NCBI GenBank assembly: GCA_037951105.1
Contig: JBAMJV010005532.1
Location: 1-64,000 of the forward strand
Source of the DNA: Echinarachnius parma
Lineage: Eukaryota > Echinodermata > Echinoidea > Clypeasteroida > Echinarachniidae
Length of the DNA: 64,000 nucleotides
Direction of reading: 5' to 3'
Below, piece after piece: positions 1,347-37,240 of the stretch; the first letter of the stretch is position 1, and each line of letters begins with the position of its first letter. The translations under genes and the position numbers were made by a program. The notes beneath the pieces are model-generated. The model was given only the letters and a program-made list of their open reading frames with translations. It searched no databases and was not told the DNA's origin.

Positions 1347-4300
1347 GCATGGCACGTCCGCTATACAATAAAATTGCAATTGTGAACGGAATGAGCAGCT
1401 TATATCGTGTGACCTGCGGGGATTCCCCATAAACATGACATGACGTCGTGGGATTCCCCATCGAGCGCAAATCAGTACACGACTAATTATTCGTCGTGCG
1501 TTGTATAGTACCAAGCAGGCCGGCCTAGCTCTTAGGATTCACGATACATGGTGCATGTGATGTACATAATTATGTATCTCCTAATCATAATTTGCCAAAG
1601 TTAGGCACGTACAGTTTATGTTCACGTCATCAACGAAATTTAACTGATATTGATAAATCTACGTCTGACAGCCAAGACTGCACGGTCATATCGTGGTATG
1701 GATTAGCCACCCCGGAAGTTAAGCTGGATACATACTCGCCGACATCAGATTTGCTGCGGGTGCGAACTACCGCCCGCTTCATCATTCGGTCCCGTTTTGT
1801 TCAAGGTCAAGGACTCTAACTGAGACCAGAAATCAATCTCTGTTCCAAAGGTTATTCCCGATATGCGGTGAGTAAGTAATAATTAATCTAAAAAGTAAAT
1901 ATAAGACGTGAGTTCAATAGCTTGCATACTAATAATTGTAATATTTTATTCTGAGTAATATGATTTTGTCTGTTTACTCGTAAACTTAATTGTACGATTA
2001 TCCATGTTCTTCTGCAAAATTAAAAATTCATATAAAAGAGTATACAATTTGCTGCTCATATGTAATAAAGTAATGATGCTAATAGTCAATACAGCGATAT
2101 CTGCTTTATAAGTGGGGTATTATATAGGCTTTTTTGAGAGCATGGCATTCAACATCAACGTGGCAATTTTGTTGTTAAATCGCCCCCCCCCCCCCCCCCC
2201 CCCGTATAAACGTTTGACTTGCATTTAAAGCCAAAAGGCACGTACTTACAAGTCATGTACCGTCGAAGGTAACTGTGATCAGCCCTGTGCGTAGCACAGG
2301 GCTGATACGCACGTCGCCTGGATAGGTTACGTCGAAGGGTGCTTTTAATTGTTGTTATTTGGAGCCAACGCCATTGTCTCCGTTTAAAACGAGACATCAA
2401 TGTTTGTACACACTTTTACCATTCAATATAACTATAATATATTGCACGTTGCTATAGTAACGTGCATTATTATACAAATAGCGCATGGTTTGGAGTTGAA
2501 TATACCAGAATAGACAACGATACATTTTTAAACGAGAGCGATTATATTGCATCGAGGCCGCAGGCCGAGTGCAATAAGCCAGTTCGTAGTTACAATCTGC
2601 GCATGCGCGTATTTACTTCCGGGTATTTTGATATTCCATCGATCGTGAGAATCAAAGGAGCCACACGTGCAATTGAATGCGAATTATTTGTTTACGTTTT
2701 TTAAAATCTGGATCAGGATAAAAATAAGCCCATCGTTTTTTGTATTTTACCACATCAAAGGTTAATAGCATAATATGTACTAATTTCATAGAACAAGAAC
2801 CGGTTTGATAGAATGTGTTGTTTCATGTGTAATGATGATATTTATTGATCAATAATTTCACCGAGCCTTGCTTAGCCTGGCTAGGTTGGGTAGCACGAAC
2901 TGGGTACGTACACACGTAGGTGTACATAGCATTGTGCGGAGATTATCGTCTTCCGCTTGCTGCACTATCCAACGCAAAAACAGATTTGCCGGCTGATTTC
3001 TCTCTCCCTTTATTAGCAAATGCAAACAAAATTTCGTTTATGTGATCCACAATTTATATAAATTGATAATGATTACCGACTTTCTTGTTTTGAAGAACGC
3101 AACATGTAGAAAAAAATTATTATATCCCATCTGTTTTCCTTGCCGATGGCGTCCTAAAAAATAGCGTTCAATTATTGAACAGTACAGTGTACGAATGGGC
3201 GATGTGCTTATCTCCAATCTTGTAGCATTAGTGCGTGTGAATGATCCACCTGGATCATTCACAAGAAAGTTGATTACAAGAAAGTTGATTTGGAGAAAAA
3301 TCGACAAAATTCTTGAAGATATTTTACATCAAATGTATTCTTTATGAGTTTATGCAGCTGCTCGTATAATTTCCACTTTGATTTTATGCATCTAATGTTT
3401 GTTTTATGCTGTCAAACTAAAATTATCCGGTAAAATGACATGATAGCATACACTTTACTGTACGTTGATAGCCCGTTGATGGAATATCGGACTACGCCCT
3501 CTGACGTCACCCAAGCTCCATAGTCTAATTACGAACTGGCTTATATAATCGCACGAGAGAAATTAAAAATGTAGAAGTGTTTATTATGGAATATTTAACG
3601 ACAGGAATCTGTTATATAAGATGATTATTTTTGAGGAACTGATTTTGTTATCATGTAGATAAACCCAAATTGACCATGCTCAAATTGTGAGTGTTCTCTC
3701 GTCGGCCCTGCGTACTTTGTACAAGGGCCAGCGCGTATTAAAAATAATTGCGCGCTCTGCGCATTTTCCCCATTCAAGAACAAGCGCACAAGCGCACATT
3801 ACGCACTCCAAGGCCATCCCTGCGCAGTTATAGTGCATATGCACTATAACTTTACCATTTACTATACCGGATTAAGCATCAGTAATCAACCAATAGGAAT
3901 GCTCAATTTCCCTTAACTATGACGTCATCATCTTATATAACAAAATAGGCAATGTGGGAGGGGGGGGGGGGGCACGTCCCCCCAATAATTTGGAAAAAAC
4001 AAGAAATACATAAGGTGTGCCCCCCAATAAGTTTGCGTGCCCCCCCCCCCCCCCCCCCCCCCACCCAATCAGTCCGACCACGCTACGCCACTGGCCTAAC
4101 CAACCAATAGGATGGCTCATGACGTCATCATCTTATATTATACAGGAGGGAATATCACAGAATCTTTCTCTCCGAGGGATTTGAAATAATATGCTATTGA
4201 GGGAAGGTTATAAGTCCCGAGGACGTACCATAGTCGAGGGACTTATTGTCTTCACGAAATATCATTTTGAATCCTGAGGGAACCTTCAATGATTTTCCCG

Positions 4301-10277: not shown

Positions 10278-10549
10278 AAAGATATCTACAGAGTGTAACG
10301 AAGTTTTCTTCTCCCATCAATGATGGGCGAAACTATGCTTCATCACGTGATTAACTTTTGACCAATCGTAGAGCAAGATTCTTAGTATGTGGAATATAAT
10401 CCGTATTATGCATACAGGCAGGCTGCTTCGTGTTTGCTGAATATACTGTTTAGATGAATTGACTCATTATAGTTTATAAGCACTTTATTATGTATTAATT
10501 TTCTGTCATGTTCTATCATTTCATCATTAATGTCCTTGTAGATGTTGTA

Positions 10550-10724
10550 ATGGCTGATTCACAACACATCTCAGAAGCTGAGTTATTCTCTTTAAGCCAA
10601 GAAATCCTGCAGCGAAACCGTGATCATTATTGGACATTTGGCTTAGCCTTGGGTCATACTTTTAAAGAACTAGATGAACAACTTAACACATGCAAGGATG
10701 ACAGAATCCGAGCCCTAATGAAAG
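10550..10724 (+). CDS. RLR exon 1: first half of death domain
   Basis: Codes [20 protein letters not shown] and continues through a helical pattern with W28, typical of a death-domain N-terminal half. It ends in phase 1 at AAAG|GTAACT. A likely 3' splice site (CCTTGTAG) ends at 10540, just before the chosen ATG, so a 5' untranslated exon may lie upstream. The alternative start at 10508 would add 14 mostly hydrophobic residues and lies upstream of that acceptor. Confidence 0.8.
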
Positions 10725-13700
10725 GTAACTACTCTCAAACACATTTTCCCTAATGGAAATGCTAAACTCCTTTAATTTAGTTTCACAATTTGTAACAATG
10801 GTTAACAAATCAGTAAAAAAATCGGCTAAAATCACCAAAAACAAATTTAAGTAATGTCATAATTTTCCACCACTACGCAAATAATTCGATTAGTTATATC
10901 TCTAAAAGTATATTAGTTATGTGTTTGTCTACGCGGTAACAATATATATTGAAGGTACTTAAAGGGATAGTTGAGTTTTGGTATAGAGGGCGCTACACAA
11001 AATAATTTTTTGTGAGATAATGTAAAACTGAGTGTCAAATTCAAAAGAGCATACAATTATAATGACAGAATAAACTTTATTTGATAAAAATCGGTTCAGA
11101 AATGCCTGAAATATCCATAATTATAACCATTTGTAATAATTGTGGGGCCCCACAATTATTTGATAATTTTGAACCAGCCGTTAACAACATTTTAAAAATG
11201 CTTCCTCTTTTCAAAAATTTACGAAAGAGGCTTTTAAATAGTTGTTGATTATCTCTCTATCTATAGCTATTTCAACAAAACATCACATGCACAGTCCTTG
11301 ATTTGAAATGGTTTAAACCGATGAGTGTTAAGAGAGCGCCCTCTTGAGTTTGAACGGCTCCTTTTTAATGATAACAAGCTTTTTACTTAGTCATTTGTAA
11401 TTTTGTTTCAAGCAGGGTGTAGTTATAACTATTAGTTTGTAATGTTATGGTGCAGGTTTTGGTTACTAAAATTCAGTTTGACCAAAACTGTACTCTCTTT
11501 ACCAGAACTCAACTATCCCTTTATGCTATTTACCTATTTTTTCATGATTTTGATGATTTTAAAGTCCTCACCGAATGGCGGGAGAAGACGGGACCTGCCG
11601 CCAGAAGTAGACTACGCGATATTTTGCTTAAAGTGGGGCTTACAGATGCCATCAACACACTTGAAGGTATAAATCAACTTTTAATCTCCATTATATGTTC
11701 ACATAGATTAAATGCTTAATTTAATTTTGGGCCTACATTTTTATTGTTAGACGTCTGACTGTATAGTTATAAATTATAAACATTTCCCTCGGGATATTTC
11801 CTGCTATGTGAGGGTAAAAAAAACACCTTCGAATTTAGCTGTTTAGAAATGTGACGATTATTAAATGCACATTGCAAGTACCCTGCTTGAACCCTGAATT
11901 GAATCGGTCAAGGGATACCCACATTGGAAATCTCGATGAGGGTCTAGGGGCGGAGCCCCCGGAAGCTTTTGGAATTTCGATATCCAGAACCAAAGATGGT
12001 CTCCATATGTAAATAGAAACAAATAGTTAGTTATGTAGTAAGCTCAATTCTAGTGGGCATCATTAGCGAAAATTCCTAAATAAAACTATTAAATGTGTAC
12101 AGGGGAACGAGTCAAGTATCCTTAACGAGGGTCCAGGAGGCGCAGCCCCCGGAAGATTTTGGATTTGGGCAGTTTAGCACTCTCAAGATGTGGTTTATTT
12201 AATGCTATTTCCCCCCCCCCCCCACCTCATTTTTTTTTTTTTTTTTTTTTTTTGTGGGGGGGGGGGGGGGGGGGTTATCCCCCCCATCCCCATCCCCCCC
12301 TCCCCCGAGATCGACGCCCATGGGCGAGGGGAATGATTCATCCAACCCTCCATCAAGCATCGGAACGTACATCAGTCTATATATTTAAATTGCTTCTTTG
12401 CTAAGGATCAAATAATAATAACATAAAATGTGTAATTCGATGACTAATCCATAACTTTCCTAATGTCCACTGAATTCAGTTACCAAGGACCTCCATTTGG
12501 CAGAGGAGAATGCTTTGTCTGACACGTCATCAAGGTCATTTACCTTATCCAAGGAGAGCAAATTTGAGAAGGACAGCATGCTTCCTTCTTCAGAGAGCGG
12601 GTCCAGAACAGTTTGTACGCTCATGGACATTTACTACTATATTAACAAGTTTGATTTCTTACCACTATTAAACTACAATGAACCCAACATCAAACATATA
12701 CATTTTAAACATTCACAATTTTTAAAATCTAGTTTTGGGGAAACAAATTGTTTTCCATATTTTGTACACAAACCAGGAACAATTCATCACTTACCGGGCT
12801 CACATGCAATGATTATTACGTTTTTAAATGAGAATTCCAATATATCCAATACACTGGGCCGTATGCATAAAAACAAGCAATTGCTTGTGCTAGCCTTTTG
12901 CTTGAATCGGTATGCATAAAAACAAGCAATTGCTTGCAAGCAAAAGCATTTGCTTACAAGCACAAGCAATTGCTTACTGCTCGTAAGCAATTGCTTACCA
13001 AACAAGCAATTGCTTAAAACCGTATGCATAAAACGAACCTTTTACTTGTCTTGATAAGCAATTGCTTGCGTTTTTTCAAGCACATCCAGACCAGCTTGAG
13101 CTCTTGCTTACTCAGGGCATTCGCGTTTAAGGATCAAATTTTCGTACCGTTTCAGGATGATTTCAAGCTCCATATTCCAGAGGTTATGTTGTGATCAAAT
13201 TCCTGTTATTTTAGACTTTTTACGGCAATTTTTGTCCATCGATCTGCACAGAAAGCCCCCTGATGCTCCGCGCTGTTTCCCCCCTATTTGCGTAATAAAA
13301 AATACTGCTGCCAGGTCGGGCACGAAGCGTTGTTGCCCTGCAGTGCGATGTTCGCACAACCGTAACGATCCTTTGTCCAACACGTAAGCAATTGCTTAAG
13401 CAGTGCAAGCAAAAGGTTTCATCACAAGCAAAGGCTTGTGCATACGAATTTAAGCAATTGCTTGAACTTGATCTTTTGCTTGACAAGCTCTTGCTTGTGC
13501 TTAAAGCATTTGCTTATAAGCAATTGCTTGTTTTTATGCATACGGCCCATTATCATAATAATAAAGTAAGTGTTACAGTGTCCTAGTATTGCATTTTCCA
13601 TAACAGTTTTATATGGGACTTTAATTATTTCAATTATGAAGCTGCTAGCACCAATTCATCGACTGGAATGACGGCCAACATGGATCGTCTTCAAATGATT

Positions 13701-16700
13701 CAAACACCACGTAAATACACAATTTATCATTGTGCATCACTTCGTGTGATCCCACGCACTTTCTTTACCAAATCCGATTTAATTATCCTTGGGTTAGTGC
13801 ATCTGATTATTCGAGCATTGCAAAGGGTTACATGGGAACGTCCCCCATTTAAGGGTCTGTGTGGCTCGATGGTTGAGCACCGGTCTAGCAATCCTGGGGT
13901 CTCACGTCCTGGGATGGGGAGGAGGAGGGGGGAGAAGGAGGGGGGGAAAGGGGGTCACTCCCAACATGACTGGCTACACACCCGCGTCTAAAAAAGCGTC
14001 AAAGGGGTATCATTTTCAGCTATACGGCGTCGTCGACGTTTTCCTTTAAAAAGGGGTGGATTTCAGCTCTCATTAAACAAAAAACCCACAAAAAAGGGTA
14101 CTTTTTCAGGTGCACAAGTTTTCGACGTTATGGTCCATTTCAGAGGTTGATAGAAACGGGTGTGTAGCACTTAAGCATGAGAGTGACCCCCCCCCCCCTT
14201 ATGGAACAATCATAGTGTTACCACACGGTTACCACACGGTTACCACACTATGTTCACATAGTCAATTCTGTGTAATGTATGTGGAAATGGTGTGTTCACA
14301 GTGTTATCACAGTGTTGAGTTTCATAACATGTGGTTTACCACACAATAATCACATAGTCTAACACAGTGTCCACAACTTAACACATATTTACCACATTGT
14401 GTCATCTAGTCCACTATGTGTATACCATGTGATCATAGTGTTGCCAGTGTGATTCAATGAATTTCTGTGTAACACAGTGTGTTCACAGTGTTGGGTCTTA
14501 TACACCATGGATTACCACACAATACTCACATAGTCCAACACAGTGTCCACAACTTAACACATATTTACCACAGTGTGTCATCTAGTCCACTATGTGTATA
14601 TCATGTGATCATAGTGTTGCCACAGTGTGATTCAATGAATTTCTGTGTAACACAGTGTGTTCACAGTGTTGGGTCTCTTACACCATGGATTACCACACGA
14701 TACTCACATAGTTCAACACAGTGTCCACATTTTGTTTGGGTGTCAAATTTTCAGTGTTCAAATAAAGGGATAGTTGAGTTTTGATAAAGACAGTACAGTT
14801 TTGGTCAAACTAAATTTTAGTTACCAAAACTAATCTGTCAATTGTTACTTTGTATTGCCCACATGTCCAGATGGCGCAAGTGGTCGTGAGAAGGCAGCAT
14901 TATGGTTGCAGGAACATGAAAACGAATATCATAATGATGAAATGGGGGCAATGCCTGGTGGAGATCGTTATTCAGGTAACAATTATGAGATGCACATAAT
15001 CAGTGGCGTATAGCTACGGGGGACACGAGGGCACGTAGTCCCCCCCCCCCCCCCCCCCCCTCCCCCAACAAAAACAAATATAAAAAAATAAATAATATTT
15101 TTTTAATTTTTTAATTTTTTTAAAATTAATTAATAAATAAACACAAAAATGTATAATAATAATTAATAGATAATAATGAATAAATAAATTAAACATAAAT
15201 AAATTTTAAAAAATGAACAAATGCATGACAATTAATTCGTTGCATTGCCTACATGTCCAGGTGGCGCAAAGGCAGCAGCATGGGTGCAACAAGAACATCA
15301 AAACAGATATCCTAATGACGATGAAATGAGGGCAATGCCTGGTGGAGATCGTTATTCAGGTAACATGATATATGCACACTTAGTGGCGTTTAGTTTATGA
15401 GGGGCACGGGGGCAGGGGGGCACGTCCCCGAACAATAATATCCCAAAACAACAGAAAACATTGGGGCTAAATTTATGACTGAACAACATACAAAAATAAT
15501 TAAGGTCCGACCACGCTACACCATTGTGCACAATAACGATGGACATTGTTGCTTTCCACAATTTCACCTTGCTCTGTATTTAAAGGGATCTAGTAACTTT
15601 GTTGACATGTGCAAAAAGTGATGAATGGTTGATGCAATGTATATTGTTGTTATCTCATATGTCCACAGGGTATTGTGTGAAAATTTCAAGTCAAATGGAC
15701 ATTGTATGGCCAAGTAATGAGCGAAAATGCAAAGTGATATTCAGTAACTCACTGCACTCACTTTGTACACGGAAGAAAAACTCGCCCGGAGTTTTTCTTA
15801 TCTGAATACTTCAATCATACATATCTTTGTAACGAAAGGGAAATTTGAAAAACCGAAACCTGTCCCATGATTTTATTGTTAATACGAATACAACAAGGTA
15901 TAAGGGAACCGCTAGAATTAAAATTTTATTTTGAGGATTTGGACAATGTTACTAAGTCCCTTTAAGTGCACATTATTTCAAAATTTAGTATATATCATAG
16001 CATTATGCACTTCCGACGACGAATAGTCAACCTATTCGAAACGTCGAGCCCCTCCTACCATCCACACTGGGATCCACCCTCTCCTCACAATACCAACAGT
16101 TCTTTCCAGGACTATCTCAACAGTCCTTTCTAGGACTACCAGCAGTCCTTTCTAGGACTACCAACAGTCCTTGTTAGGACTATTCTAGAAAGAACACCAA
16201 CAGTCCTTTTCAGGACTATACCAACAGTCCTTTATAGGACTACCAACAGTCCTTTCTAGGACTACCACAGTCCTTTTTAGGACTATCCTAGGAAGAATAA
16301 CAAATCAGTCCTTTTTAGGACTCACCAATCCTTCCCTCTTACATGGTGCAACCGCAAACCACACGTATTATTATGCATTCTAAAGAAAACAAATGATATA
16401 GCATTTGTTCAAATCAATCAAAACAGTTAATAAATTTAACTTGAGTTTCCAAGAGTGCACCTATTAAAAAAGTATGAACTACATTTGTATCATGTTTTGT
16501 TAATCATTGTATCTGTTTATTAATCATCTCGAGTGCTGAAAGGCTCATCGATATCAAACTCGTCAATTTCATTGAATCTGTTCCAATACATCCAAATTTA
16601 TTTCATTTCCAGGCATATCTATCCCATCCACTCAACTTCTTCTCTTACGCGACTACCAAAGAGAGCTTGCACAGCCAGCCCTTGATGGGCATAACACGAT

Positions 16701-19700
16701 AGTAGTCGCCCCCACTGGGTCCGGCAAAACGTTTGTTGCTGTTGAGGTTGCTAAGCACGTCCTAGACAAATGGGACCGTCGAAGGAAAGTCATATTTGTT
16801 GTCAATCAGGTATTTATTTTGTTTGTATTTTGAATTTGCCTATAACCTTTATGTATGACGATGATAGAGACATATTTAAGTATGAATTGGCGTAACATTT
16901 ATTATCGTCTTCATTATCACCTACAATGTCAAGTTCAAGGTTATTTTCTTTACCAAAGAGTGCTCTTTATTTTCTTTGCCACATAGTGGCCCTTGTTGTC
17001 TTGCAGTAACTCCTGTGGTCTTAAACATCATTTATGTAATGGTATTTATTGATTGTTAGTGACTGTTGGAAACACATTTTTAGCAGACTCTAATATATGA
17101 CCCTTGTATCATACATACATTATGTGTATTGGACTCTTGTTGTTGAATATTACTGCATAATTATCTTGATTCTTATATAAGACTCCTATATCAAACACTT
17201 ATATCTGATAATTATATTTGATTTTTAAACAGTTGTTTTAAATGTCAGACTCTAATATGAGAAGCTTATATCTGTCTCTCTTATCAGAAACTGTTGTCAG
17301 AAGGTTTTATCTGATTCATATACAAAACCTTTTTATCAGTATCTTTTTTTCTCATACGTAGGCCTACGTATGAGACTTATAGTAATGGTAATATTATAGA
17401 TTTATATAGCTCCTAATATGATACAATATCATATCTAAGACTCTGACAGTATAGTGTATTATATCAAACTAGTATATGTGAATCTTAGATATGATACCAA
17501 AGTTGTACATCAGGCTCTTATAATTATCTGGTTCTCATTATATCTCTACAGAAAAAAAAAAACATTTTGAATATGCAATTATAATCGTCTAAACTTCTTC
17601 TATGTATTACTAGTTCAAATGTGTATATATTTATATAAAACAAACGTTAAATAAATGTTCTATTAAATTCGACTACACCGATGCAGAAAAAATGTCTTCA
17701 ACTGTCTCTCGCTCTCTCTCCCACTTCATACATATATAGGTTCCACTTGTCGACCAACAAAGCACCGTGTTCAAGATGTACATCGAGCGAGTCGACAAGA
17801 TTTGCGGTGATCACGGACAGAGTGGTCAACGACCACGGCCTCCGCTCAACGTCCTCCTGGCAAACAACGAGGTCGTGGTACTCACGGCGCAGATATTGGT
17901 GGACGCGCTACAAGGCAAGCACGTCTCTCTGAAAGACATTGGACTCATCATCTTTGACGAATGTCACGAAACCAAGGTAATACATTTATCATCTAAAAAA
18001 ACTGACTCAACATTTATTTACATGTTCTCATGTTCTTTTTATAAATATTTGGAATACTATGTCTACTATACGGTATGTGGAAACAACGATGGCGTGATGA
18101 GTAATGACACATAATTATATTGATGGAAGCACATCGCTTATCTCGACTTATTTTCAATGATTTTGTTTTAACGGAAACAAATAATATCATATAAAATGAT
18201 AAGCTTCTTATACCAAAACTTAACTGGTGCTATAAAGTGGATGTAAAATAAAAGCAGTTGAAGTTGGATAATCTTTTTATGGTCAATTGGACTAATAAAG
18301 TTAGTGAAAATTACCCTTAATCTACTGTAATACACTGACGGTTAAAGGGGTATTACAGTTTTGGTAAGACTGAACTTTAGTAACCAGAACCTGCACAGTA
18401 ACATTACAAACTAATAGTTATAACTCCACCATGCTCGAAAGGTATACAAAATTACAAACGACTAAGTAAAAAGCCTGTTATCATTCAAAAGGTGCCATTA
18501 AAACACAAGAGGGCGCTCTCTAAAAAGGCATGGTTTCAATCATTTTTCATACAAAATTATGCATGTGATGTTTTGTTGAAATAATGATTAAATAGAGAGA
18601 TCATCAACAACTATTTAAAAACCGCTTTTGAAAATTTGTGAAAAAGTGTAAGCATTTTTTAAAATTTTTTTAATCGAATAAATTTGGGGCCCAAATTTAT
18701 TACGATCGGATATATTTATTGATATTTCAGCCATTTCTGTACCGATTTTGACAAAATAAAGTTTATTTTGCCATTAAAATTGCATGTTCTTTCAAATTCG
18801 ACACTCAGTTTTTCATTACCTCACAACAAAAATTGTGTTGTGCAGCGCCCTCTCTACCAAAACTGAACTACCCTGTAACTTCTATGTATATTATAAAATC
18901 AATTATTACACTTTACAGAAAGGGAACCAGTTAAACATGATAATGGAACTCTATCATCAATACAAGCTTGATGGTGATGACCATAACGAAATACGCCTGC
19001 TACCTCAGGTAAAGATAGTGTTGTCATTTCTGAATAAAATTATTTTACTATTTCCTTATAAATAATTGATGATGTTTAATGATGAAGTGATATATTGAAA
19101 AATGTATTTGTAATTATGAGTTTTGAATCTTACAATAAACACATGGTCAAAAACATGCTTCTTTATAACATAGTAGAAATGTTCGATTTCTAGTATTACT
19201 TTTTTAATGATATTCTTACTTATTATTCATATTTGTATCAAAGGAGCTTTATTCGTTATATTTCTGATGAAGTAACAATGCTTATAATTATTATTCGTGT
19301 AAACTTGGGGTGGATGATTAATTGCCTAGGTTAAATTGCAATTTCTTTGATATTACTGAACATTCATGAAATTTGTGAATTTGTCCACTATGTCCATGAT
19401 TAAGGGTCGCATAAATGCAAGTTATGACAATTACAATACTTGAGCAATATTCATTAACAGATTCTTGGTATGACGGCCTCCCTAGGCGTCGGTGACGCTC
19501 ATGATGTGGAGTCTGCCAAAAAGTACATGATCAGGATTTGCGCAAATCTTGACGTCATGAGAATAGTGACGGTCAGAGAGCACACGAAGTCTCTTGCGGA
19601 GGTAGAAAATAAGCCGACCGAAGGTATATAACCAATGGCCTGTATTGGGTAATAATCTCTTGATTACTGTAACAGTCTCTACATCAACCTTCCTCAATCC

Positions 19701-22700
19701 CACATTGCTCCCCTCCAACGAATACAGAACTCAGCAGCCCGTTTAGTTTCCCGCACAAAGAAATCAGATCACATAACTCACGTTCTGCGCTCCTTACACT
19801 GGCTCCCTGTATCTCAAAGGATCCAATTTAAAGTTCTTACTCTTGCATACAAAGTTAAACATGGCCTAGCCCCTAAATGTATCTCAGAATTAATTATTCC
19901 CAAAATGCAACCCTCTCGTGTTCTCCTATCATCATCTACTGCCAACCTAGAATTCAATACTGGTCCTATCCCCCGCACTCGCTACGGAAAACGCGCCTTC
20001 TCAATTGCCACACCCACTCTCTGGAACAACCTTCCTGTCCACATCCGTGCCTGCACCACACTGGACTCATTTAAAGGGGTAGTACAGTTTTGGTAAGGCT
20101 GAACTTTAGAAACCAAACCTGGACAGTAACATTATAAACTAATAGTTATCAACTCCACCATGCTCGAAAGGTATACAAAATTACAAACGACTAAGTAAAA
20201 AGCCTGTTATCATTTAAAAAGAGCCATTAAAACACAAGAGGGCGCTCTCTAAAAAGGCATTGGTTTCAACCATTTTTTATACAAAATTATGCATGTGATG
20301 TTTTATTTAAATAATGATTAAATAGAGAGATCATCAACAATTATTTAAAAAACGCTTTTGAAAATTTTTGAAAAAGTGTGAGCATTTTTTAAATTTTTTT
20401 TAAAAATCATCTAATTATTTGGGCCCCAAATAATTATAAGATCAGATATATTTATTGATATTTCAGCCGTTTCTGGACCATTAAAATTGTATGTTCTTTC
20501 AAATTCGACACTCAGTTTTTCATTACCTCACAACAAAATTGTGATGTGCAGCGCCCTCTCTACCAAAACTCAATTACCCCTTTAAGACTGAACTCAAAAC
20601 CCACTTATTTAGATCAATCTAAGCAGTATAAGTTATATCGTCTCACTTATACATTACATGATTATATTGTACAATCTCTTATTTAAATGTCATTATATTG
20701 TGTAATTCTATTATTATGTAACGGCGCTTGGAAACTCTTTATAAGTGCAAGCTATTATTATGTATTATCCTTTTCTTAATGAATTGCCTATTTCGTACAA
20801 TATGCTTAGTGTATACAACTTTTTTGTCATAATAATAATAACGGTTATGTATATAGCTCTATTCCCGTGGGGATCATAGCGCTTTATCCACAATTATTAT
20901 TACCCCGGTCAACGGATACACACTGGATTCGTTCCTGCACATTAAGTGCACCTTTTCCACTCCCTGGGGAGTATTCCAGCCAGTCGCCTGTCAGGCGCAC
21001 ATAGTGCTAAGGAAACACGTTCCAATCCTTCCAATACACCTGGCTCATATCCCTCGCCAGTTATCTATTATTCATTCGTGGAGTAAAAAGTCAGGATTTC
21101 ATAACCAGTTTCATGTCATAGTTCAATAACGATTCAAAGTATAAGTACATACATTATATATTTAATTATAGTTTGAACCCCAAATTATGCTTCATTGAGT
21201 GAGGATTCCCCTTCCAATTACAGATACTCACATTGTTCCAGATCGAGTGAATGATGCTTTCAAGGAGGCGATCCAGGATATCATGTTTAACATCTTTGCC
21301 TGGATGTTTGAACACTCAGGTGAGGGTAATGTTGAGAACATGATAACTTTGCTGGCCAGTAGCCAGGATTTTTCAAGGGGGGGGGGGGGGGGGGGTGCGT
21401 CGCAAAACAAATTTGGAGGTCGAGACCACTGGTTAAGCTGTGTAATCGGGGGGAGGGACCGAGACCAGTGGTTTAGATGGTCGATACTGATTAAAAGTCG
21501 ACCCGAGACCGGAAAAAATGGACCCGAGACCGGTAAAAAGTGGACCTTTCTGATTTTTTTTTTTTTTTTTTTTTTTGGGGGGGGGGGGGGGTGTGTACAC
21601 ACCCAGCGTATCACTTTTTGCACTTTTCAACAAAGTTACTAGATTCCTTTTAAGGAAACCAAATCCTAATAAATGTGACTTATAACGAATTATGTTATGT
21701 TACCTTCATGTAGCAGTCACACCGCCAAACCGAATCCAAACCAACACGAGACCGAACTTCCACTTTATCGGGCACCGACAAGAGCCCGAAATGGGGTTAG
21801 CAGTCACAACAAAAGAGACCGACAATTCCGATACCACTCCGACACCAAACCACCAGCACCCCGAACGTCACCGAAATGTCCCCGAATTATTCGGTCTCGT
21901 GTCAGTTTGGATTCGGTTTGGCGGTGTGACTGCTACATTACTAGGAACAAATTAATGTTTTAGAGACAATAATATTTTGATCACGTACATTATTCGCACC
22001 GATCAAGCATGGGAAGACTGGTTGATGATTTACAAGGTTGGCTGGTTGGATATTTGGTTTTTGCAGACGCGTTCAAGCAATTATGATTGTTTGAAATGTT
22101 ACATGTCAGAACAATGATAACGTTTTGTTTCATTTAACAGAACCGTCTCTAGTCGAGGAATCAAAGAAATCTCTAACGACCCTTAAGAGTTACAACCACT
22201 CGTCAGAAAAGTTCGGCCAAGTTCTGAGCAAGCTAGAGAAATCGATCAGCGATCTGGCACGGGCGCCGGGCAGAATACGCAGTCTCATCACCTGCACCGA
22301 GCATCTTCAGGTTAATTTTCGAACTTTCTTTTTGCGTTTGATAATTATGAAAACATGACACGATTGTTAGCTCTATGGAGAGCATTTTATCCTTATGGCA
22401 ACATCATAATGATGCAACCATAGCCCAATGAGTCTATGGGGCAAGGGGGCTGCGACCCCCCCCCCCCCCCCCCCCCCCTCCTATCCCGAGAATTTTGAAA
22501 TGGCGATAATAAGGCAAAATAATGTCATGTTCGGGCAAAATCATGACATTTTAGGGCAATATACAATTTTTGATGGCAAAACCATGTCATAATCCGGCAT
22601 TGGGTATGGAAACAGAACAATTACAAACAAAATGGTTGGTGATGATCAGTACGTGGCATGTAGCGCCGGGATCGAGGCAGGGGGGGGGGGGAGACAATGG

Positions 22701-25700
22701 CTGCGTCCCAAATTACTTAATACATTAATCACCAACCTCATGGGAAAATCATTCAAAATAAAGAAATCCACAGAGTGTATATACCACCCTCAAATTAATT
22801 TGCATGTTCCCCTTCAATCAATCAATCAATTTGACCACTCTAATAAGTTATAAGCCAGTAATAATGAGAAATATGGCGTGGTAAACTTGTGCAAAATAGG
22901 TGCTGAATCTTGAGAAAATCCCTGTTCATTTTATAATAATAATTTGTTTAAATGTCCTTTGTATGTGATTATCCTTATTAGAGATACAGCAGATGTCTTG
23001 CGATTCATGAGACTGTTAGGTCAAAGGACGCCCTCGAACACCTTCAAACATTCATGGAGGAACAACGCCAGGAAGCAGCAACTAATACCGACACCGACAG
23101 AATGCTTATCCGAATGTTCCAAGGTACGGTAATCAGGGGCCTTTAATTTGCTCAACACTTTGAGACGCGATCGCTCAAAACTTTCTGAATTAAGCAATAT
23201 GTGACTTCACTTCATGAATCTTCAAGAAGCTTAATTTGGTTTGTATCTAATCGCAACTGTATGCAATTGGACCTTGATCCATGATTGACCATTATTGAAA
23301 AAAAATAAGGCGATAGCCGTAATGTGTCTCGCCCAATTGCGCTTTTATGCCAATGAAGTTTGGTTACAAACAGATGCAGGGTTGGAAAGTTATCGAACCT
23401 TGCAGGTCTTGCAGGTAAACTTTCAAATTTGACCTCATTTGACCTTTGACCTACATATGTGACCTTTGACCCCAGCATATGGAGGCCAATATAGGGCATC
23501 TACCAATCAAGTTTGGTTACAAACAGATGCAGGGTTAGAAAGTTATCAACCCTATTAGACGCTTACTCCAAAACTTTCACATTTGACCTCATTTGACCTT
23601 TGACCTACTTATGTGACCTTTGACCCCAGCATATCATGAAGGCCGGTATAGGGCATCTACCAATCAAGTTTGGTTACAAACAGATGCAGGGTTGGAAAGT
23701 TATCAACCCTAATAGACTCTTAACCCAAAACTTTCACATTTGACCTCATATGACCTTTGATACTTATGTGACCTTTGACCCCAGCATATCATGGATGATA
23801 TCATGATCATACAAACAGATGCAGGGTTGGAAAGTTATTCAAATTTTTGTAAGCGTCACGGACGGACAGACGGACGGACAGACGGACACAATTTGGATCC
23901 CTAAAGCCCTCTGCAGACAGAGCCGACTCGACCCGATTCGACTGGTTTTCATTCCGATCGGCTCAGTTTTCAGTGCCTCGCGACACACATTTTGCCAGTC
24001 GAGAGACGGTCGGATGCCAGTTGGGGCCGATTCAACACGATAAATCTGCTCCGACCGACAGGGCCCAACTCTAGCCTGATTGAAACCAGTCGGATCGGGT
24101 CGAGTCGGCTCTGTCTGCGCCGGGCTTTAGTCTCCCCTCCAACTACGGTGGGCTCGACAAAAAACGAAACGGGGTACTTGCCATAATAAAGACACATGAC
24201 GACTAGATTCACGGGATAGGACATATTTTACAAAGAATAATGATACCAAGAACAGTAATTTGGGTCAAGTAGTTTTTTTTTTTATATTTATGATCTCTTA
24301 AGTGAGACCATGTCAGGTTCCCATTTTTGTCAACTTTTACCAAATCAGTGCCTGATAAATCACACCTTCTGCCCGTCATAGCATCGAGCAACGATCAATA
24401 CGTGCGCTATGTTAAGTGTACATTCAGCTGTGTGCCGAGAGAAGGGGCATAGTAGGGAGTGAGTAGCAAGGGGTAACGGGTACGTTTTGTTAATGGTGCC
24501 GTCAGACCGACCTACGCTTCTACTACGCTCTCGGACAATAGCTGATCACAAGCACTGGAATAGATCTGCAAATGTATTTTGTTCAATAGGGAATGAATGG
24601 CAAGATTATTTCACATGCGTGAAAAAATAACCTCAGATAATATTCCATGAACAAAAGTTCAGATCGCGAAACCCCTACGCTTCTACTACGCTTGTTTTTT
24701 GATGTGTTCAAAACGAGCGTAGTATAAGCGTGGAGGTCCCACGATCTGAACTGTATCAGGGGGTATTATCAGTTCATGGGAGGTTATCTTTTCACGCATG
24801 TGAGATAATCTTCCCATTCATTCCCCATTGAACAAAAGGGTGCGGTTCCTTATTCCGAAGGTTCGTTATTCCGAAGGTTCGTTATTCCGAAGGTTCGTTA
24901 TTCCGAACACGCAAATTTCCTATACCCGAGTGTTCGTTAATCCGAAAATGAAATAGGGTTCGTTAATCCGAACATTTGTTGCATTATTCCGAAGGTTCGT
25001 TATTCCGAAGGTTCGTTATTCCGAAGGTTCGTTATTCCGAAGGTTCGTTATTCAAAGGGTTCGTTATTCCGAAGGTTCGCTATTCCTAAAATGAAATCGG
25101 TTCGTTATTCCGAAGGTTCGTTATTCCGAAGGTCCGTTATTCCGAGGGTTCGTTATTCCGAAGGTTCGCTATTCCTAAAATGAAATCGGGTTCGTTAATC
25201 CGAAAATGTATTTGGGTTTGTTATAATGCTATAATTTCATATAAAGAGATAAAATAAACTTAAATATTTGATTGGTCTGGCCAAGGGAGGGAAAGGGGGA
25301 GGGGTATGCTTAATGCAGGCTGTAAATTAAATAAACAAAACACAAACTATAGTATTATAACAAGCCCGATCTAATTTTCGGAATAACGAACCCGATTTTA
25401 TTTTCGGATCAACGAACCTTCGGAATAACGGACCTTCGGAATAACGAACCCGATTTTATTTTCGGATCAACGAACCTTTGGAATAACGAACCTTCGGAAT
25501 AACAAACCTTCGGAATAACGAACCCTCGGAATAACGAACCTTCGGAATAACTGAACCTTCGGAATAACGAACCTTCGGAATAACGGACTGTAACCGAACA
25601 AAATACATTTTGCGGAACGCCGCTCTAGCTACGTGTTTCTACTAGACTTCGCCTCGCGCTTCCAAATTTATCAATGTGGTATAAGAACGTAGTAGGAACG

Positions 25701-28700
25701 TAGTAGGTGTGACGGTGGTATAAGCAATTTATATTCAAAGGTTAACAAGGGGGTAATGATCACACAATAAGCTATTCATTGACCGAGTGATCGCATACCC
25801 GCTCGTTCATTCTTTGTTATATATAATTGCTTAACAGTGGCGAAGCACAGGTCGCAGTTGGAAACTGGAAAGAAAATGAAGAACCTCTGGGAAAATTTTC
25901 CCATCACTAAATCCTAACCCCCCTCCCCTCCCCCTCACTCTCTCCATGTCCGTTACGAAGTTAAATCATCAATTAACGCACCAGCCAGTTCCCAAACAGG
26001 AGCCAATTAATCAACATAACGCGGCAATGTTACCCCTTCTCACCCACAGCTGAATGCACACTGACAACGGCGCACGTATTGATCGTTGTTTGATGCTATG
26101 ACGGGCCTAAAGAGCGATTCATAAGGCACATACTTTGGTAAAAATTGTCAAAAATGGGAACCTGGCATGGCCTCACTTAAACATCCTAAATCAAAAACTA
26201 CTTGATCAAAATTACTGTTCTTGGTATCGTTTTTCTTTGTAAAAGATGCCCTATCCCGTGAACCTAGTCATGTGTCTGGAAACTGGAAAGTATCCCGATG
26301 GCAAGTATCCCGGTCCGTTGGGGGGGGGGGGGGGGGGGGGGGCACTCTGTTTATGGATGCATCGCTAACTCCTCTACGGGCCCGACCCTACCTGGGAGTG
26401 CTGCATACGGAGTTGCGATTAATCGCAAGTCAGAAAATGTGCCTAAATGCGCAAATCTGGTTGGGTCAAGTACACGTGTTTTCTGACTTAATCGCAACTC
26501 TTTATGCAACATCACCTTGAACCACTACAGGGTGTCCCAGAAAAAAACGAAACCGGATTTCATGGCAGAAATTTTCTGTCATAATGAAAATTGTCTTTGA
26601 TGAGATATACATGTATATGAAAAGCTCTGTTTCTCTTATTTCATTTGATCATACAACTTATGGCACATAATTCACGCATGACTGAATTAAAACAATGGAA
26701 ATTGGTGTTACCAAAATTCCATTTGCACTATACAGGGTGGCCCAAAAAAACTGAACGGGGCACTTCCCAAAATAAAGTAACACAATTATTATGTCCATCG
26801 GATAGGGTGTCTTTTCCAATGAAACACGATACCAAGAACAGTCATTTTGGTTGAGTAGTTTTTGTTTTAGGGCGCTGTGAGTGACACCATGTCAGGTTCC
26901 CATTTATGTCAATTTTTACCAAGTCAGTGCCCGATAATTCGCACTTACGACCCGTTATAGCGGAGCAGTACGCGCGCCATTGTTAGTGTGCATTAAGCTG
27001 TGAAACGAAAGAATGGGCACAGTTGCTCGATGCTATAACGGCTAGTAAGTGCGAATAATCGAGCAATGACTTGGTAAAAAATTGGCAATAATGGGAACCC
27101 GCTGACATGGTGTCACTCACAGCGCCCTAAAACAAAAACTACACGACCAAAATGACTATTATTGGTATCGTTTTTCATTGGAAAAGACACCCTATCATAT
27201 GGACATAATCATTTTTAAACTTTATTTTTGGAAGTGCCCCGTTCCGTTTCTTTTAGGCCACCCTGTATATACACAGGTTTGACTGTATTTGCATGTACTA
27301 AATCTTACAGAAAAGGAGCCAGAACTCGGGGAGCTTAGTCGTCGTCCGGACAGCGAGAACCCAGGACTGTTGAAGCTCCAGGAACTTCTAGAGGAGGTTT
27401 GCTACACTAGTACAGGAGTCCGTACTGCTTTCAGGGGGATCCTGTTCACACAGACCGTTGTATCCACGCAGGCTCTTAAGGCGTGGGTCTTTGAAACAGA
27501 AACCCTGAAGCACCTCTACCCTGAACTTCTGGTAGGATGCAGGCATCCTGGTAAGTAACACTCACTTGTAGCCTGTAGTTCTAAGGTAAGCATCTGGACA
27601 AACACATATCATTACACAGGGTGGCCCCCCAAAATCGGAACGGGGCACTTCCCAAAATATAGTAACAACATTATTATGTCCATCAGATAGGGTGTCTTTT
27701 CCAATGAAAAACGATACCAAGAACAGTAATTATGGTCGTGTAGTTTTTTGGGGGGTGCGCTCTGAGTGACACCATGTCAGGTTCCCATTTTTGTCAGTGC
27801 CTGATAACTCACACTTCCTGCCCGTCATAGCGTCGAGCGAACATGCCCATTCTCTTGGCACACAGCTGAATGCACACTAACAATAGCGCGCGTATTGCTC
27901 ACTGTTTGATGTTATGACGGGCAGTAAGTGCGATATATCAGGCACTGACTTGGTAAATATTGACAAAAATGGGAACCTGACATTGTGTCACTCAGCGCGC
28001 CCTAAAAACAACTCGACCAAAATTACTGTTCTCGGTATCGTTTTTCATTGGAAAAATACCCTTTACGATGTACCTTATCACTTTGTTACTTTAATTGGGA
28101 AGTGCCCCATTCCCCCCCCCCCCCCCCACCTTCTTTTTTTTTTTTTTTTTGGGGGGGGGGGGCCACCCTGTATATTGGCAGTGGTTTATTATTCATACAA
28201 ACTATTGGCTACACGCATGCCCCCGAGGCATGGTCATGGAAACGGAGTCTCTGAGTCACCCCAACCCTGAGCGTCTAGTAGGATACAGGAATCACTTTAT
28301 TTAACTTTCCTGGACTCTTATCCTGTTCAGTACAGACCTGTACAAAGTATGGAAAACAATACCATCTATGAAAGGAGGCTGCCATCGGAAGACTTAAAGG
28401 GGTAGTTTAGTTTTGGTAGAGAGGGCGCTGCACATCACAATTTTTTTGTGAGGTTATGAAAATCTGAGTGTCCAATTTGAGAGAACGTGCAATTTTAATG
28501 GCAGAATAAACTTTATTTGGTCAAAATCGACCCAGAAACGGCTGAAATATCAATAAATATATCTGATCTTATAATTATTTGGGGCCCAAATAATTAGATG
28601 GTTATTTGAAAAAAATTTAAAAATGTGCTTGCACTTTTTCAAAAATTTTCAAAAGCGTTTTTTTACTAGTTGTTGATGATCTTTCTATTTAATTATTGTT

Positions 28701-31710: not shown

Positions 31711-33558
31711 ATGTGAGGAAGAATAATTAATGATACCATGCCTAAAACATTCTCCGAATACATGCTAAACTAAGGCATAACGTACCAGTTCATGTAGCTT
31801 CATAGATCATATCCTGTGTACTTGCAACATTTTACCTTTTAACTTTATTAGTTTACCTTTAATATTATAATGGTTGTCCGTTCCCTTTAACTTATGTGAG
31901 GACCAAATAATTAATGATACCCATGTCTAAAACACACAATGCTATACTGATGCTTCATATATCATTTCATGTGTACTTGCAACATTCTAGCCGTACTATT
32001 CGCATGCCAAAACGTTTCCTTCTTTATAGTTTCTATAATTCATTTGAAGAAGAAAAAAAAGACTCCTGTAAACGTATAGGGCCGGGGTCAGAATCCAACA
32101 CTAAACGTTTTGTGTGATTAACTTCTACGCGGATTTATGATAATAAGGTTGTCACATTTGTGATGATCGGGTCAGTACTTTAAGGTACATTTACTTATGT
32201 AAAGGGATGTCGTACCAGAAATCTCTTGCTTTATATACACTGTACAAGTGGTTTGATTTGATTTATTCATTTCCACATTTTCAACATAATGTATGGCGAA
32301 AGAAAAATGACGAAAAACGCAAGTCCGAACTGAGACAGAGATATATATAATTATCACAAATATTCAAACAGTAAACAAGAAGTGAGAACTTATAATGTTG
32401 AAATGTTATTTATCAAGAAATAAAATAAATTATGTGAACATTTTAAAGCCAGAATAAGTGATTTATAGTAAAACAAAAAATTTAAAAAAAGAGAAGAAAA
32501 AAGGATAAGTAATAAGTAGATATTGATTATTTTCAAATTGATAATCATGAACTCGTGTAGATTTATGTCGCTAGCTGTATGCATGCCAAATTCATGACTG
32601 AGTTTATTCGTTGACCAAGATCTCTGGGTGAATGTGGTGGTGTTGCAAGGGGGGGGGGGGGGGGGGGGGGGGGTTGGAGTGGAATCAGTTTACTCCTCCC
32701 CCCCCCCCCCCCCGGCTCTAGCATATCCGAACAAGAATTTGAATTAAGTTTTAATGAGAAGAAGTAGATAACTGATACGTCAATCATAACGGAAAACCTC
32801 CTTTTTGAAGCTATTTTTTGGTTTTAATCTTGATTTTGTGTGAGAGTGCATTTTCAGGTTACAATGTCAATGATATCAAAATATTTTTGCAAGAATATAA
32901 TATTATACTAAATTGATTATTGCAAATGCATGTACATGTATATTACATGTAAGTAGAATTGTATACATACCAAGAATATAATATTATACTAAATTGATTA
33001 TTGCAAATGCATGTATATTACATGTAAGTAGAATTGTATACATACCATGAATTTATAATTTATCAGTCCTGTTTATACAATTTATTAGTTCCTTAAATCA
33101 ATGGACATTTTAAAAGGATGATTTTACAGATATGATTTGAATTAAAGAGAATTGTTGTTCATATTTGTAAAAAACGATGTCCTTCTTCTATGATAATATC
33201 AAATGTACAAATTGTATTCCAATTGGACAAAATACACTGGCACTCTTTAACTGAAATGTATATAAAAATCACATTAGTTCCCTTTCGAAATAAGTATAAA
33301 ATGTTATTGCAATATCATAAAGTAAACTGACCACGTAACATAATCAAGATAGAATCTGACATAGCCGATATTTTGTACCTCATAAAAATGTTCTAGCCGT
33401 GTCATGCATGTGATTGGTCGACGGTACGTCATGTGATCAAAAAAAGATTCTTTATGTACTATGCATGACGTCATTTTACTTTTTTCCCTAGGCGAAAATA
33501 GTAAAAAAGAGATATCGATACTATCGGTCCATGCATTTTGCATGTATAGTATCGATTC
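31711..33558. other. Intergenic region between the RLR and the LINE
   Basis: No exon seen. Contains an internal duplication (31712-31800 and 31868-31990 share GACTTATGTGAGGA/ATAATTAATGATACC), homopolymer G and C runs at 32650-32715, an 80-bp tandem duplication at 32889-33047 and a palindrome-like ATCGATACTAT...ATAGTATCGAT at 33513-33550. Confidence 0.6.
32889..33047. repeat. Tandem duplication, two units of about 80 bp
   Basis: AAGAATATAATATTATACTA and ATTGATTATTGCAAATGCAT occur twice. The second unit lacks one ATGTAC step. Confidence 0.9.
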
Positions 33559-33559
33559 G

Positions 33560-36500
33560 CGTACCACGGGGGAAAAATGGTTTGAAAAAACATTATACGT
33601 ATAGACAAATTAACCCCTTTGTACAAAGTCGTTTAGATTATTTTTTTATTTCACATAATTTAGAACAAATTGTTTTAAAATGCAATATAATCCCATCAAT
33701 TGCACCGGATCACTTTGCTGTTGAGTTACAATTTTATAATTTGCCTAATTGCTCAATTAAAAGTAAAGGTAGCTATTGGAAGTTTAATAATACATGTAGT
33801 TTATGTGGTGATGTGGATTTTGTTAGACAGATGAAAGAGGAAATAGTGAGATTAAGGAATATATATGGAAAAGAAATAAAAGATGTAAGAGTGTATTGGG
33901 ATTTTTTGAAAATGAAAATTAGTAATTTTATTAGGAAATATTCTAAAGAAAAATCTAGAAAAAGGAAAGAGAAAAATTCAAAATAAATAAGTGTAATTGA
34001 GAAAGAATTGATAGAAAAGGAAGAAAAGGAAAAGGTTGATTTGTTGGAAAATAAAAGGATGGAGTTAAAACAATGTTATGAATATATTAATGAGGGTTTG
34101 AAAGTTCGATCTCGAGCATCCTTTTATGAGAGAGGGGAACAAAATACTAAATATTTTGTGCAATTAATGGAATCAAATAAAAAGAAGACAATAATAAGTA
34201 AATTATTAGTAGAAGGAGGGAAAATAAGTTTTTTCATATGAATATAATTATTCGTGAAATACAAAGGTTTTATGTTGGATTATATTCAAAATTTGTTGTG
34301 GATGTAGAAATGTTTAATGATAGTCTATTTTTTAAAGATTTGCCAAAATTAGGTTTAGAATCAAAGGAAGTATGTGAAGGTAATATTACTCAAGGTGAAT
34401 GTATAGCGGTTTTAAAAGAAATGAAAGGCAATAAGTCACCCGGAAATGATGGTCTTAGTGTAGAATTTTATGAATTATTTTGGCCTGTCATTGGTGATAT
34501 TGTGGTAAGGGCCTTAAATGAAGCATTTGTTAAAGAAGAATTATCTTCTTCACAAAAACAAGCTATTATAATATTGATTCAAAAGGAAGATAAAGACCCC
34601 TTACAAATAACAAATTATAGGCCTATATTCTAAACGTAGATTATAAAATTTTAGCTAAGGTATTGTCTGTTCGGATTTAAAAAGTATTAGGTGAACTTAT
34701 TAGTATAGATCAGGTAGGATATTTAAAAGGGAGAAATATAGGTGAGGCTATAAGATTGATAGATGATATGATTTTTTATACTAAAACAAATAATATACCA
34801 GGGTTTTTATTAGCCATTGATTTTAAAAAGGCTTTTGATACTGTTTCTCATGATTTTTTGCAAAATGTGTTAAAGACGTTTGGTTTTGGGACTTCATTTT
34901 GTAAATGGGTTCGTACTCTCTATAAGGGCGCGCAGAGTTGTGTATTTAATGGTAATGTATCCACTGGTTATTTTAATATTATGAAAGGAGTAAGGCAGGG
35001 AGACCCCTTATCACCCTATTTATTTATATTATGTATAGAAATTTTAGCACGCTCGATTAGGACCGACAATGAAATTTCAGGGTTTATTCTGGGAAAGGCA
35101 CATATTAAACAAGTTTTATACGCAGACGATATGACGCTTTTTGTAAAAGATAAAGATTCGTTGATAAAATTAAATGAAAAATTTGAAACTTTTGCTATAC
35201 TATCGGGATTACAAATAAATCAAGACAAAACATATGTTCTGTTATTAGGACCTCTGCACGGAAGGGAAATTGTAACTCCTTTTGGTAAAAAAGTTCGGTT
35301 GATTAAAATATTAGGTATATATTTTTCTATGGATCCTGAAGTTCAAGAAAGAATTAATTATAAAGAAATTTTAAGTAAAATTAAACATTTATTAATATGG
35401 TGGAAACAGCGGGACTTGACCCTGATGGGAAAAATTCAATTGATAAAGACGTTTGTGATTTCTAAATTAATATATATATCTTCACTCACTCCAATACCGC
35501 CAGGTGTAATAGAAGATTTAAATAGACTAACATTTGATTTTTTGTGGCATGGGAAAGATAAAATTAAACGAGAAGTTACTTTTTTGAAATATGAAAAGGG
35601 GGGTCTAAAAATGATTGATTTTCAATTGTTTATTCGGACACAGAGAATAATGTGGATTAAGAGACTTTTTGAGGGGGAATCAATGATGGGATGGAAAAGA
35701 GTTTTTAAATTCTTGACTCGACAAGTAGGAGGTCTGTTGGTGTTTTTTTGTAATAGTTCATTTGATTTATTGAACTTGTCACTTCCGGTTTTTTATAGGG
35801 AAATGTTAGAAGCTTGGATAGGTTCAAAAGATTTTTTGTTAAAAGAAACTGGAAGTAGAAATCAAATTGTTTTTAATAATAGATACATTCGAATTAATGG
35901 ACAAATTTATTATAATGAAACATTATTTTTGAAAAATATTTATAAAATACATCATATAGTCGACAGTAAAGGAAGAATAAAATCTGTCCATGAATTCATT
36001 AGACTAGGATTAGATAGGTCAGAAATTGACATAGTAAAACAGATTTTTGAAAATATACCATTTATATGGAAACAATTGTTAAGTAGAAATTATAATGTGA
36101 TGGAAGATACTGCATTGAATTTGGAGTTTCGATTGAATGAAAAAGATTATTCATTACGTGATATAACTTCAAAAGGTATATATGAACATTTGTTAAATTT
36201 AACGGTAGAGAAGTCTTTTGCAGTTCGCAATATAGACCATTTATATAATGTTTTTGGAAAGGATAATGAAAATATTTTTGTACGTTCCCGAAAATCCACG
36301 CTTAATAGTACACTAAGGGAATTTCAATTTAAATTACTCTATAACCTTATTTATACAAACAAACATATGTTTACTTTTCATATGGGGAATAGTAATTTAT
36401 GCTCGTTTTGTCATAAAATGCAGGAAACCTATGAACATTTGTTCTATTCTTGTGAAATGGTAAGAATGATCTGGGTAGATTGCGGTAATGAGTTTGATTT

Positions 36501-37240
36501 AAAAGAATTAACAAATATAGATTGGAAAGGGGTCCATGTGGGAATTAAGGTTAGCAATGTAGGAAAAGACCAATTATTAAATCACGTTATACTATTGATA
36601 AAAAGTATGATATTTATTAATAGTAGAACGAAAGATTATCCTCCAACTATAAGAGATATTAAAGATACATTATTGAAAAATAAAGAGGAAGAAAGAAAGA
36701 TAGCTGAACAGAGAGGGATTTTGCGAATCCATTACAGAAAATGGAACACACTCTCTGCCTAGGGTATGAGACAGAGACACCAAGTACTGTTTGTTTTTTC
36801 TTACTACCGCCTCCCCCCCCCCCTTTTTTTTTTCTTTTTTTTTTTTTCTTTTCTTTTTTCTGTTATCTCTCCATTGTTTTCCTTTTTTTATATAGGTTTT
36901 CTCTCAAACACTATAATGATTATCATTCTATTTATGTTGATAGGTTGCAAATTTATATGTAATGGTGTACACAATTGTTAGTTTGTTGGCTTTTGACATG
37001 TTTTTTAATTTTATTTTTTAACTGGATATGATGATTTTGATAAGAGCTTTGGTTGATCCACATTTGTACTTTTAAAAGTGTTCTCTGGAAAATAATGATT
37101 TGAGAGAGAATGAAACACTTTAAAAAAAACACTTAATTGTATGTGGATTGTAAACAATAATTTATGAGTATTCATATGAATTTGTTGAAAGAATTTGTTT
37201 TGTATTGCAAAAATAAAATACTATTTCAAAACAAAAAAAA
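33560..37240 (+). mobile_element. L1/Tx1-clade LINE, 5'-truncated
   Basis: Non-LTR retrotransposon. 33575-33985: C-terminal part of an AP-type endonuclease (SRLDYFFISH, IPSIAPDHFAVELQF). Then a coiled linker and reverse transcriptase: GNKSPGNDGLSVEFYELFWP, TNYRPI, FLLAIDFKKAFDTVSHDFL, VRQGDPLSPYLFI, VLYADDM. A 668-codon frame (34756-36762) also carries the C-terminal zf-RVT-like CSFCHKMQETYEHLFYSCE. Host-type damage: a stop at 33984, a frameshift near 34220-34240, and another frame change with a stop between 34620 and 34680. The 3' UTR holds C/T runs at 36812-36850, and the element ends in an A-rich tail at about 37232. No clear target duplication. The long intact 3' frame suggests moderate age. 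Confidence 0.88.

Follow-up and report, generated by a model that had tools for sequence, protein, structure and literature searches.

Does the RIG-I-like receptor (RLR) locus in this stretch of the Echinarachnius parma genome encode one protein, in which the helicase is joined to a death domain in place of CARDs? We analyzed the whole stretch of 64,000 nucleotides (the window; C5526:1-64000 of an assembly of 1.2 Gb in 14,790 contigs) and obtained a gene model of 17 coding exons, all on the + strand and in frame, from an ATG at 10550 to a stop codon at 30979-30981. The gene extends beyond the interval of the initial annotation (10550-11666), taking in exons 3-6, which lie between that interval and the helicase, and a probable non-coding first exon ending at 1867.

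Gene model and upstream region

Coding exons 1 (10550-10724; donor GTAACT) and 2 (11565-11666; acceptor AG, donor GTATAA) supply the first 58 codons and the last 34 residues, respectively, of a putative death domain. Both are open, and joining them across a phase-1 intron gives 92 residues, including W28 (exon 1 may alternatively begin at 10542, after TTGTAG). Four linker exons follow. The 5′ boundary of exon 3 (12480-12614) is uncertain: its 3′ part is matched in four copies of the gene (73-83%), and no in-frame acceptor was found in three of these four. Exon 4 (13642-13710) is found with both splice sites in five other copies. The symmetric exons 5 (14871-14975, from the gene model) and 6 (15261-15359, from the gene model and the copies) are near copies of one another, the first and second members of a tandem duplication that is represented by a single exon in five other copies; no Pfam family was matched by these two exons. 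All of exons 2-6 start and end in the same phase, and the frame is open to the stop at 30979-30981 whether exon 2 is spliced directly to exon 7 (at 16613) or by way of exons 3-6 (four exon combinations were tried, each with one stop, the terminal one).

The helicase starts in exon 7 (16613-16809; motif I, APTGSGKT) and continues in exons 8 (17740-17976; motif II, DECH), 9 (18919-19008), and 10 (19461-19623; motif III, TAS). Exons 11 (21224-21319), 12 (22141-22310), and 13 (22982-23123) cover the region of the RIG-I_C insert, exon 14 (27311-27550) the second helicase domain, and exons 15 (29030-29197, which carries a motif) and 16 (29943-30097) further helicase sequence, with motif VI (QARGRTRAP) spanning the junction of the two. 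Exon 17 (30403-30981) encodes the C-terminal RNA-binding domain, with the cysteine pairs CWKC and CRVC and an acidic insert, and holds the stop codon. Exons 9 and 10 were placed by the gene model and the copies, and exons 7, 8, and 11-16 by these two and by Pfam. By eye, helicase motifs I, II, III, V, and VI are intact in the window model.

When the predicted protein was compared with Pfam, RIG-I_C (1.2e-29; 103.5 bits against a cut-off of 23.2), DEAD (1.4e-19), Helicase_C (2.6e-16), and RIG-I_C-RD (3.7e-11; 43.7 bits against a cut-off of 25.6) all passed their cut-offs, and the best relatives among solved structures were MDA5 (3.6e-89), RIG-I (2.9e-88), and LGP2 (1.9e-76). With the frame open to the stop and these domains above their cut-offs, the downstream part, which runs to 30981, is predicted to encode the full RIG-I-like helicase together with its C-terminal domain and to be joined in phase to exons 1-2, as the initial annotation had it. 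The same annotation described the C-terminal domain as MDA5-like, and here the preference is slight: against solved structures this domain gives 0.0051 for MDA5 versus 0.0068 for LGP2, and over the helicase and C-terminal domain together MDA5 and RIG-I tie (303.2 and 300.2 bits; LGP2, 261.1). CWKC and CRVC align to the cysteine pairs of the solved MDA5 structure 2rqb, as two low-scoring pieces.

Other features noted by eye in the window are inverted arrays of the repeat GGTTCGTTATTCCGAA inside intron 13 (24850-25600), open frames just 3′ of the RLR gene that resemble a non-LTR retrotransposon reverse transcriptase (33492-36762), and an open frame on the − strand with a sushi/CCP-like cysteine pattern (42261-42626).

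Upstream of the coding exons, an element at 1418-1459 (+ strand) contains two kB-type sequences, GGGGATTCCCC (1418-1428) and GGGATTCCCC (1450-1459), spaced 32 bases, with the ATF/CRE-like TGACGTCG (TGACGTC) between them; by their consensus, these are candidate NF-kB and ATF/CRE sites. The ten-base GGGATTCCCC occurs twice in the window, both times at this element, and two occurrences were seen in none of 100 shuffles. A block at 1.3-1.9 kb of the window is shared among copies of the gene: the window, C6232b, C7502, and C6232a each have two kB-type sites 5′ of exon 1, and C8767-2 has one. The probable non-coding first exon has its 3′ end at 1839-1867 (+ strand), at a donor consisting of GCG followed by GTGAGTAA, which is found 3′ of the kB-type element in three of five copies; the donor string TATGCGGTGAGTAA is present in the window, C7502, and C6232a, and absent from C6232b, C8767-2, and C8767-1. 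The block probably acts as an inducible promoter, in which NF-kB and ATF/CRE-type sites precede a non-coding first exon, a function that we infer from these motifs. Profiles run over the open frames in the 7-10 kb 5′ of exon 1 in five copies found no further death-domain exon (best score, 6.8 bits).

Identity of the N-terminal domain

As a single sequence, the N-terminal domain of the window protein scores 14.1 bits with Pfam Death, below the gathering cut-off of 22.6. We searched seven RLR N-terminal sequences singly (the window, C7502, C6232a, C8767-2, C6232b, and domains A and B of a divergent neighbor described below): Death was matched below the cut-off in three of them (14.1, 16.3, and 15.2 bits), and the other four had no Death match, giving weak unrelated matches or nothing. 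Among the seven, His_kinase, Trans_coact, NCH2, and DFF40 were also matched weakly (E 0.036-0.088), which we take as noise. In the whole of Pfam, CARD, CARD_2, and DED gave no match at E ≤ 1 for any of the seven. A single-sequence search of solved structures returned nothing at E ≤ 5; a profile of the seven returned, at E ≤ 10, ankyrin-3 (0.11, the best), PIDD (0.3), LRDD (0.38), Rei (0.87), and RIPK1 (0.9 and 0.98), five of these six matches (all except Rei) being death-domain proteins.

We compared the domain by hhalign with profiles built from the same genome. The death reference consisted of 20 of the 149 Pfam Death matches in the genome, picked for variety (two are nearly identical); the seven RLR N-termini aligned to it with a probability of 95.8% (P 7.5e-9, 68 columns), and five RLR sequences alone with 94.5%. 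For comparison, random seven-member subsets of the death domains gave 71.3-97.7% in 20 trials, 100 column shuffles gave at most 7.6%, the reversed profile 0.5%, and the helical insert of the same proteins 0.2%. Against the CARD profile (all seven CARD places of the genome, with the RIG-I-type CARD_2 not in it) the values were 0.2% for the seven sequences and 0.5% for the five, and against the DED profile (9 of 13 DED places, omitting two near duplicates, one under the cut-off, and one without a locus) the value was 1.0%; the baselines between families in the same test were 0.5% for Death versus CARD and 15.4% for Death versus DED. Similarly, the window domain scored 23.7 bits with an HMM of the 20 death domains, versus 4.0 with CARD and 3.0 with DED, and the best of 2000 shuffles of its residues reached 10.7 bits with the death HMM.

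These comparisons support the earlier proposal that exons 1-2 encode a death domain of 92 residues. The initial annotation had named a CARD match as evidence against this; we looked for one in Pfam and in the profiles and found none. Where a vertebrate-type protein would have two N-terminal CARDs, this one has a single, non-CARD domain.

Gene copies, an apparent mosaic copy and a divergent neighbor

When the genome was searched with the helicase (60 of 231 candidates scored), two close copies were identified on C8767, one on C7502, and two on C6232, of which one is cut short where the contig ends; C4033 holds a further piece. Exons 1 and 2 precede the helicase, on the same strand and in frame, in all five copies with a readable 5′ end, which bears out the claim that the death domain belongs to the RLR gene. 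In the four of these outside the window, exons 1, 2, 3, 4, and 5/6 are ordered upstream of exon 7 on one strand; the start codon, the exon 1 donor, and the exon 2 acceptor and donor are kept, both splice sites of exons 4, 5/6, and 7 are conserved, and the lengths of exons 1-2 differ among copies by three bases. A sixth copy (C8767-1) begins at exon 4, cut by the contig edge. C4033 has window-type exons 1 and 2 (98% and 94% identical, respectively) on the same strand as its helicase piece, and this copy is probably the other haplotype of the window gene; C7502 and C6232a, 97.9% identical in exons 1-2, are probably alleles of one gene. Across ten pairs each, dN/dS is 0.28-0.87 for the death domain, 0.30-0.49 for the helicase, and 0.49-1.02 for the C-terminal exon, the death domain being higher than the helicase. 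In exons 4 and 6, where very few sites contribute, values rise to >2, and exon 3 yields a value for one pair only, because no in-frame acceptor was found in three copies.

Two alternative structures for this locus have to be weighed. Exons 1-2 could be a separate death-domain gene, with the RLR beginning at exon 5 or 7, as the long introns and the in-frame ATGs in exons 4 and 5 might allow; but order and strand are constant in all five readable copies, exon 2 keeps both its acceptor and its donor, and exons 2-6 share one phase at both ends. Read on past exon 2, the frame differs between the types: in C6232b and C8767-2 it is closed by a stop after 4 codons, and in C7502 and C6232a it is open over the ∼14 codons read. 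We consider two genes very unlikely. More improbable still is an ordinary RLR in which a CARD or DED at the N-terminus has diverged. General models do often miss RLR CARDs (PMC2686710 gives RIG-I CARD2 at E 0.43-3.7), but the genome's own profiles, which cover every CARD place scored and most of the DED places, give 0.2-1.0% versus 94.5-95.8% for Death, and on these values CARD or DED identity was rejected. A single gene with an N-terminal death domain is the reading that we carry forward.

One of the copies, C8767-2 (L021-L023), appears to be a mosaic. Over 1.7 kb around exons 1-2, introns included, it is 90.8% identical to C6232b, and from before exon 3 onward it resembles C7502 (90-95%). 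Identity in exons 1-2 is 97.5% with C6232b versus 74.4% with C7502, and in exons 7-8 it is 93.5% with C6232b versus 97.0% with C7502. At synonymous sites, C8767-2 and C7502 differ by 18.6 in 59.3 for the death domain and by 32.5 in 366.3 for the helicase (with counts rounded, Fisher p 7.8e-6). An exchange of the death-domain exons, or else of the body of the gene, would have taken place, with a breakpoint in intron 2; the mosaic may also be an assembly join.

A divergent RLR lies head-to-head with the C7502 copy (L026), and has an allele on C6232 (L029). It carries two single-exon death-like domains (1529-1894 and 3196-3549 of L026; 669-1040 and 2342-2695 of L029), 36% and 29% identical to that of the window. 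Its helicase part has DECH, its C-terminal domain is above the cut-off (57.1 bits), and neither a recognizable GSGKT (motif I) nor a match to exons 11-16 was found in it. Further similar domains occur on C7502 (at 42.8, 60.4, and 62.1 kb) and on C6232 (at 85.1 and 118.4 kb). A tree of 27 domains groups the RLR death domains, both domains of the divergent neighbor among them, in a clade of their own (support 0.926).

Death-domain exons far outnumber CARD exons in this genome (at least 149 versus 7 scored matches), and many single-exon domains share 27-44% identity with that of the window (150 candidates scored out of 275). The RLR profile scored best, among the 20 sampled death domains, with those on C13262 (24.9 bits), C11709 (19.0), and C915 (18.9). 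A NACHT exon lies downstream of the C13262 death domain; for C11709 and C915, no same-strand NACHT exon was seen within 10 kb. The profile favors C13262, but the branch nearest to the RLR clade in the tree is L047 and not C13262; that the RLR and NLR-type death domains have a common origin is therefore no more than a lead. The seven scored CARD places are on no contig with RLR matches (these searches miss intron-split domains). We also observed a second class of RLRs (L018 and L058; C8953, C316, and relatives) in which a long exon rich in Ser, Pro, and Gln precedes the helicase, and no N-terminal domain was recognizable in the stretches read, including those of L057 and L058.

In a search limited to open-access literature, neither RLRs with two death domains nor an exchange of death-domain exons turned up. 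The two-death-domain paralog and the mosaic copy suggest that the signaling end can be duplicated or exchanged while the sensor end is retained. Tentatively, and as a possibility that we do not favor, the death domains may be a swappable module of a cytosolic RNA-sensor family, with recombination in intron 2 that combines a given sensor body with death domains of different types, two-domain RLRs, and a network shared with Death-NACHT receptors; if so, the two-death-domain RLRs would parallel RIG-I and MDA5 of vertebrates with their paired CARDs.

Proposed signaling and comparison with known systems

The reading that we regard as fairly probable is that of one RLR gene, encoding a death domain, a linker, a DExD/H helicase with a RIG-I-type insert, and an RNA-binding C-terminal domain, whose product would be clustered by RNA, engage a death-domain adaptor, and activate NF-kB. 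It builds on the domain order, the helicase motifs, the cysteine pairs, and the linkage of death domain and helicase in several copies, all as read in the predicted exons. Vertebrate RLRs rely on CARD-CARD contact with MAVS, and a death domain partners another death domain, not the CARD of MAVS; the initial annotation likewise proposed that a different adaptor may be engaged. In the proposed mechanism, double-stranded viral RNA would be bound by the helicase and C-terminal domain, which would form clusters along it with ATP, and clustering would gather several death domains. The gathered domains would seed a complex that includes a death-domain adaptor or kinase (of the MyD88/IRAK, RIPK, or NLR-partner type), and this complex would replace the CARD-CARD contact with MAVS. 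Judging from the motifs and by analogy, the output would most likely be NF-kB, which could also feed back by boosting transcription of the receptor through the two upstream kB-type sites. A single exon match to the RIG-I/MAVS-type CARD (CARD_2) was found in the genome (C14593:10934-11086; 39.4 bits), which could be part of a MAVS-like gene or of a CARD-bearing RLR, so the cell may have a MAVS-like route as well.

The strongest competing proposal keeps the same receptor and gives it a cell-death output, through a FADD/RAIDD-like adaptor and a caspase, in place of NF-kB. Vertebrate death domains serve both cell-death and NF-kB outputs, and on contig C106 a Death exon is followed or preceded at ∼7 kb by a DED exon of the same strand; the kB-type sites and the close death domain in a Death-NACHT gene nevertheless fit receptor signaling somewhat better, and we hold the cell-death output to be rather doubtful. 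Less likely again is that the death domain makes the protein a regulator or decoy, sequestering RNA or adaptors as LGP2 or single-domain inhibitors do: the divergent neighbor keeps its two death-like domains and C-terminal domain in spite of having no recognizable motif I or match to exons 11-16, whereas the window helicase has intact motifs, and helicase dN/dS is 0.30-0.49 over the ten pairs.

Vertebrate RIG-I and MDA5 share with the window gene the helicase motifs, the RIG-I_C insert, and the C-terminal cysteine pairs, and differ in having two CARDs where the window protein has one death domain. LGP2 is similarly alike in its helicase and C-terminal domain (1.9e-76), and it is without CARDs according to PMC2686710, whereas the window protein has a death domain; the same paper counts 12 RLRs in sea urchin, some of them CARD-bearing. 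The Death-NACHT receptor on C13262 has the death domain that scored best of the 20 with the RLR profile, but its sensor is a NACHT and its death domain lies outside the RLR clade. Fusions of RLR-like proteins to another death-related module are described for cnidarians and brachiopods (PMC8195603).

The closest likeness is to the A1-type RLRs, which PMC8998645 reports, with a death domain, in the sponge Amphimedon and in lophotrochozoans, molluscs included; in scallop they are expressed most in haemocytes, and the death domain is said there to have been acquired by exon gain or loss. The remark in the initial annotation on non-CARD RLRs thus holds for sponge and lophotrochozoans (Amphimedon proteins are counted as LGP2-like in PMC8260672). 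As described in PMC8998645, A1-type RLRs and the window gene are alike in forming a multigene family and in having an N-terminal death domain, DEXDc, HELICc, and the RIG-I C-terminal domain, and the Death-DEXDc-HELICc-RD order in one gene, by which the type is recognized there, is present in the window model. The window family differs in its duplicated linker exon, its kB-type element, one mosaic copy, and a neighbor with two death domains. With an RLR family that carries death domains, and with CARD exons so greatly outnumbered by death-domain exons in the genome, it becomes testable whether the RNA-sensing engine has been wired to more than one death-fold network in animal evolution. Death-domain RLRs have already been reported in a few invertebrates, so the window gene is a well-supported further example and not a new system: it is real and ordinary in kind, and the mosaic, the neighbor, and the upstream element could make it a variant.
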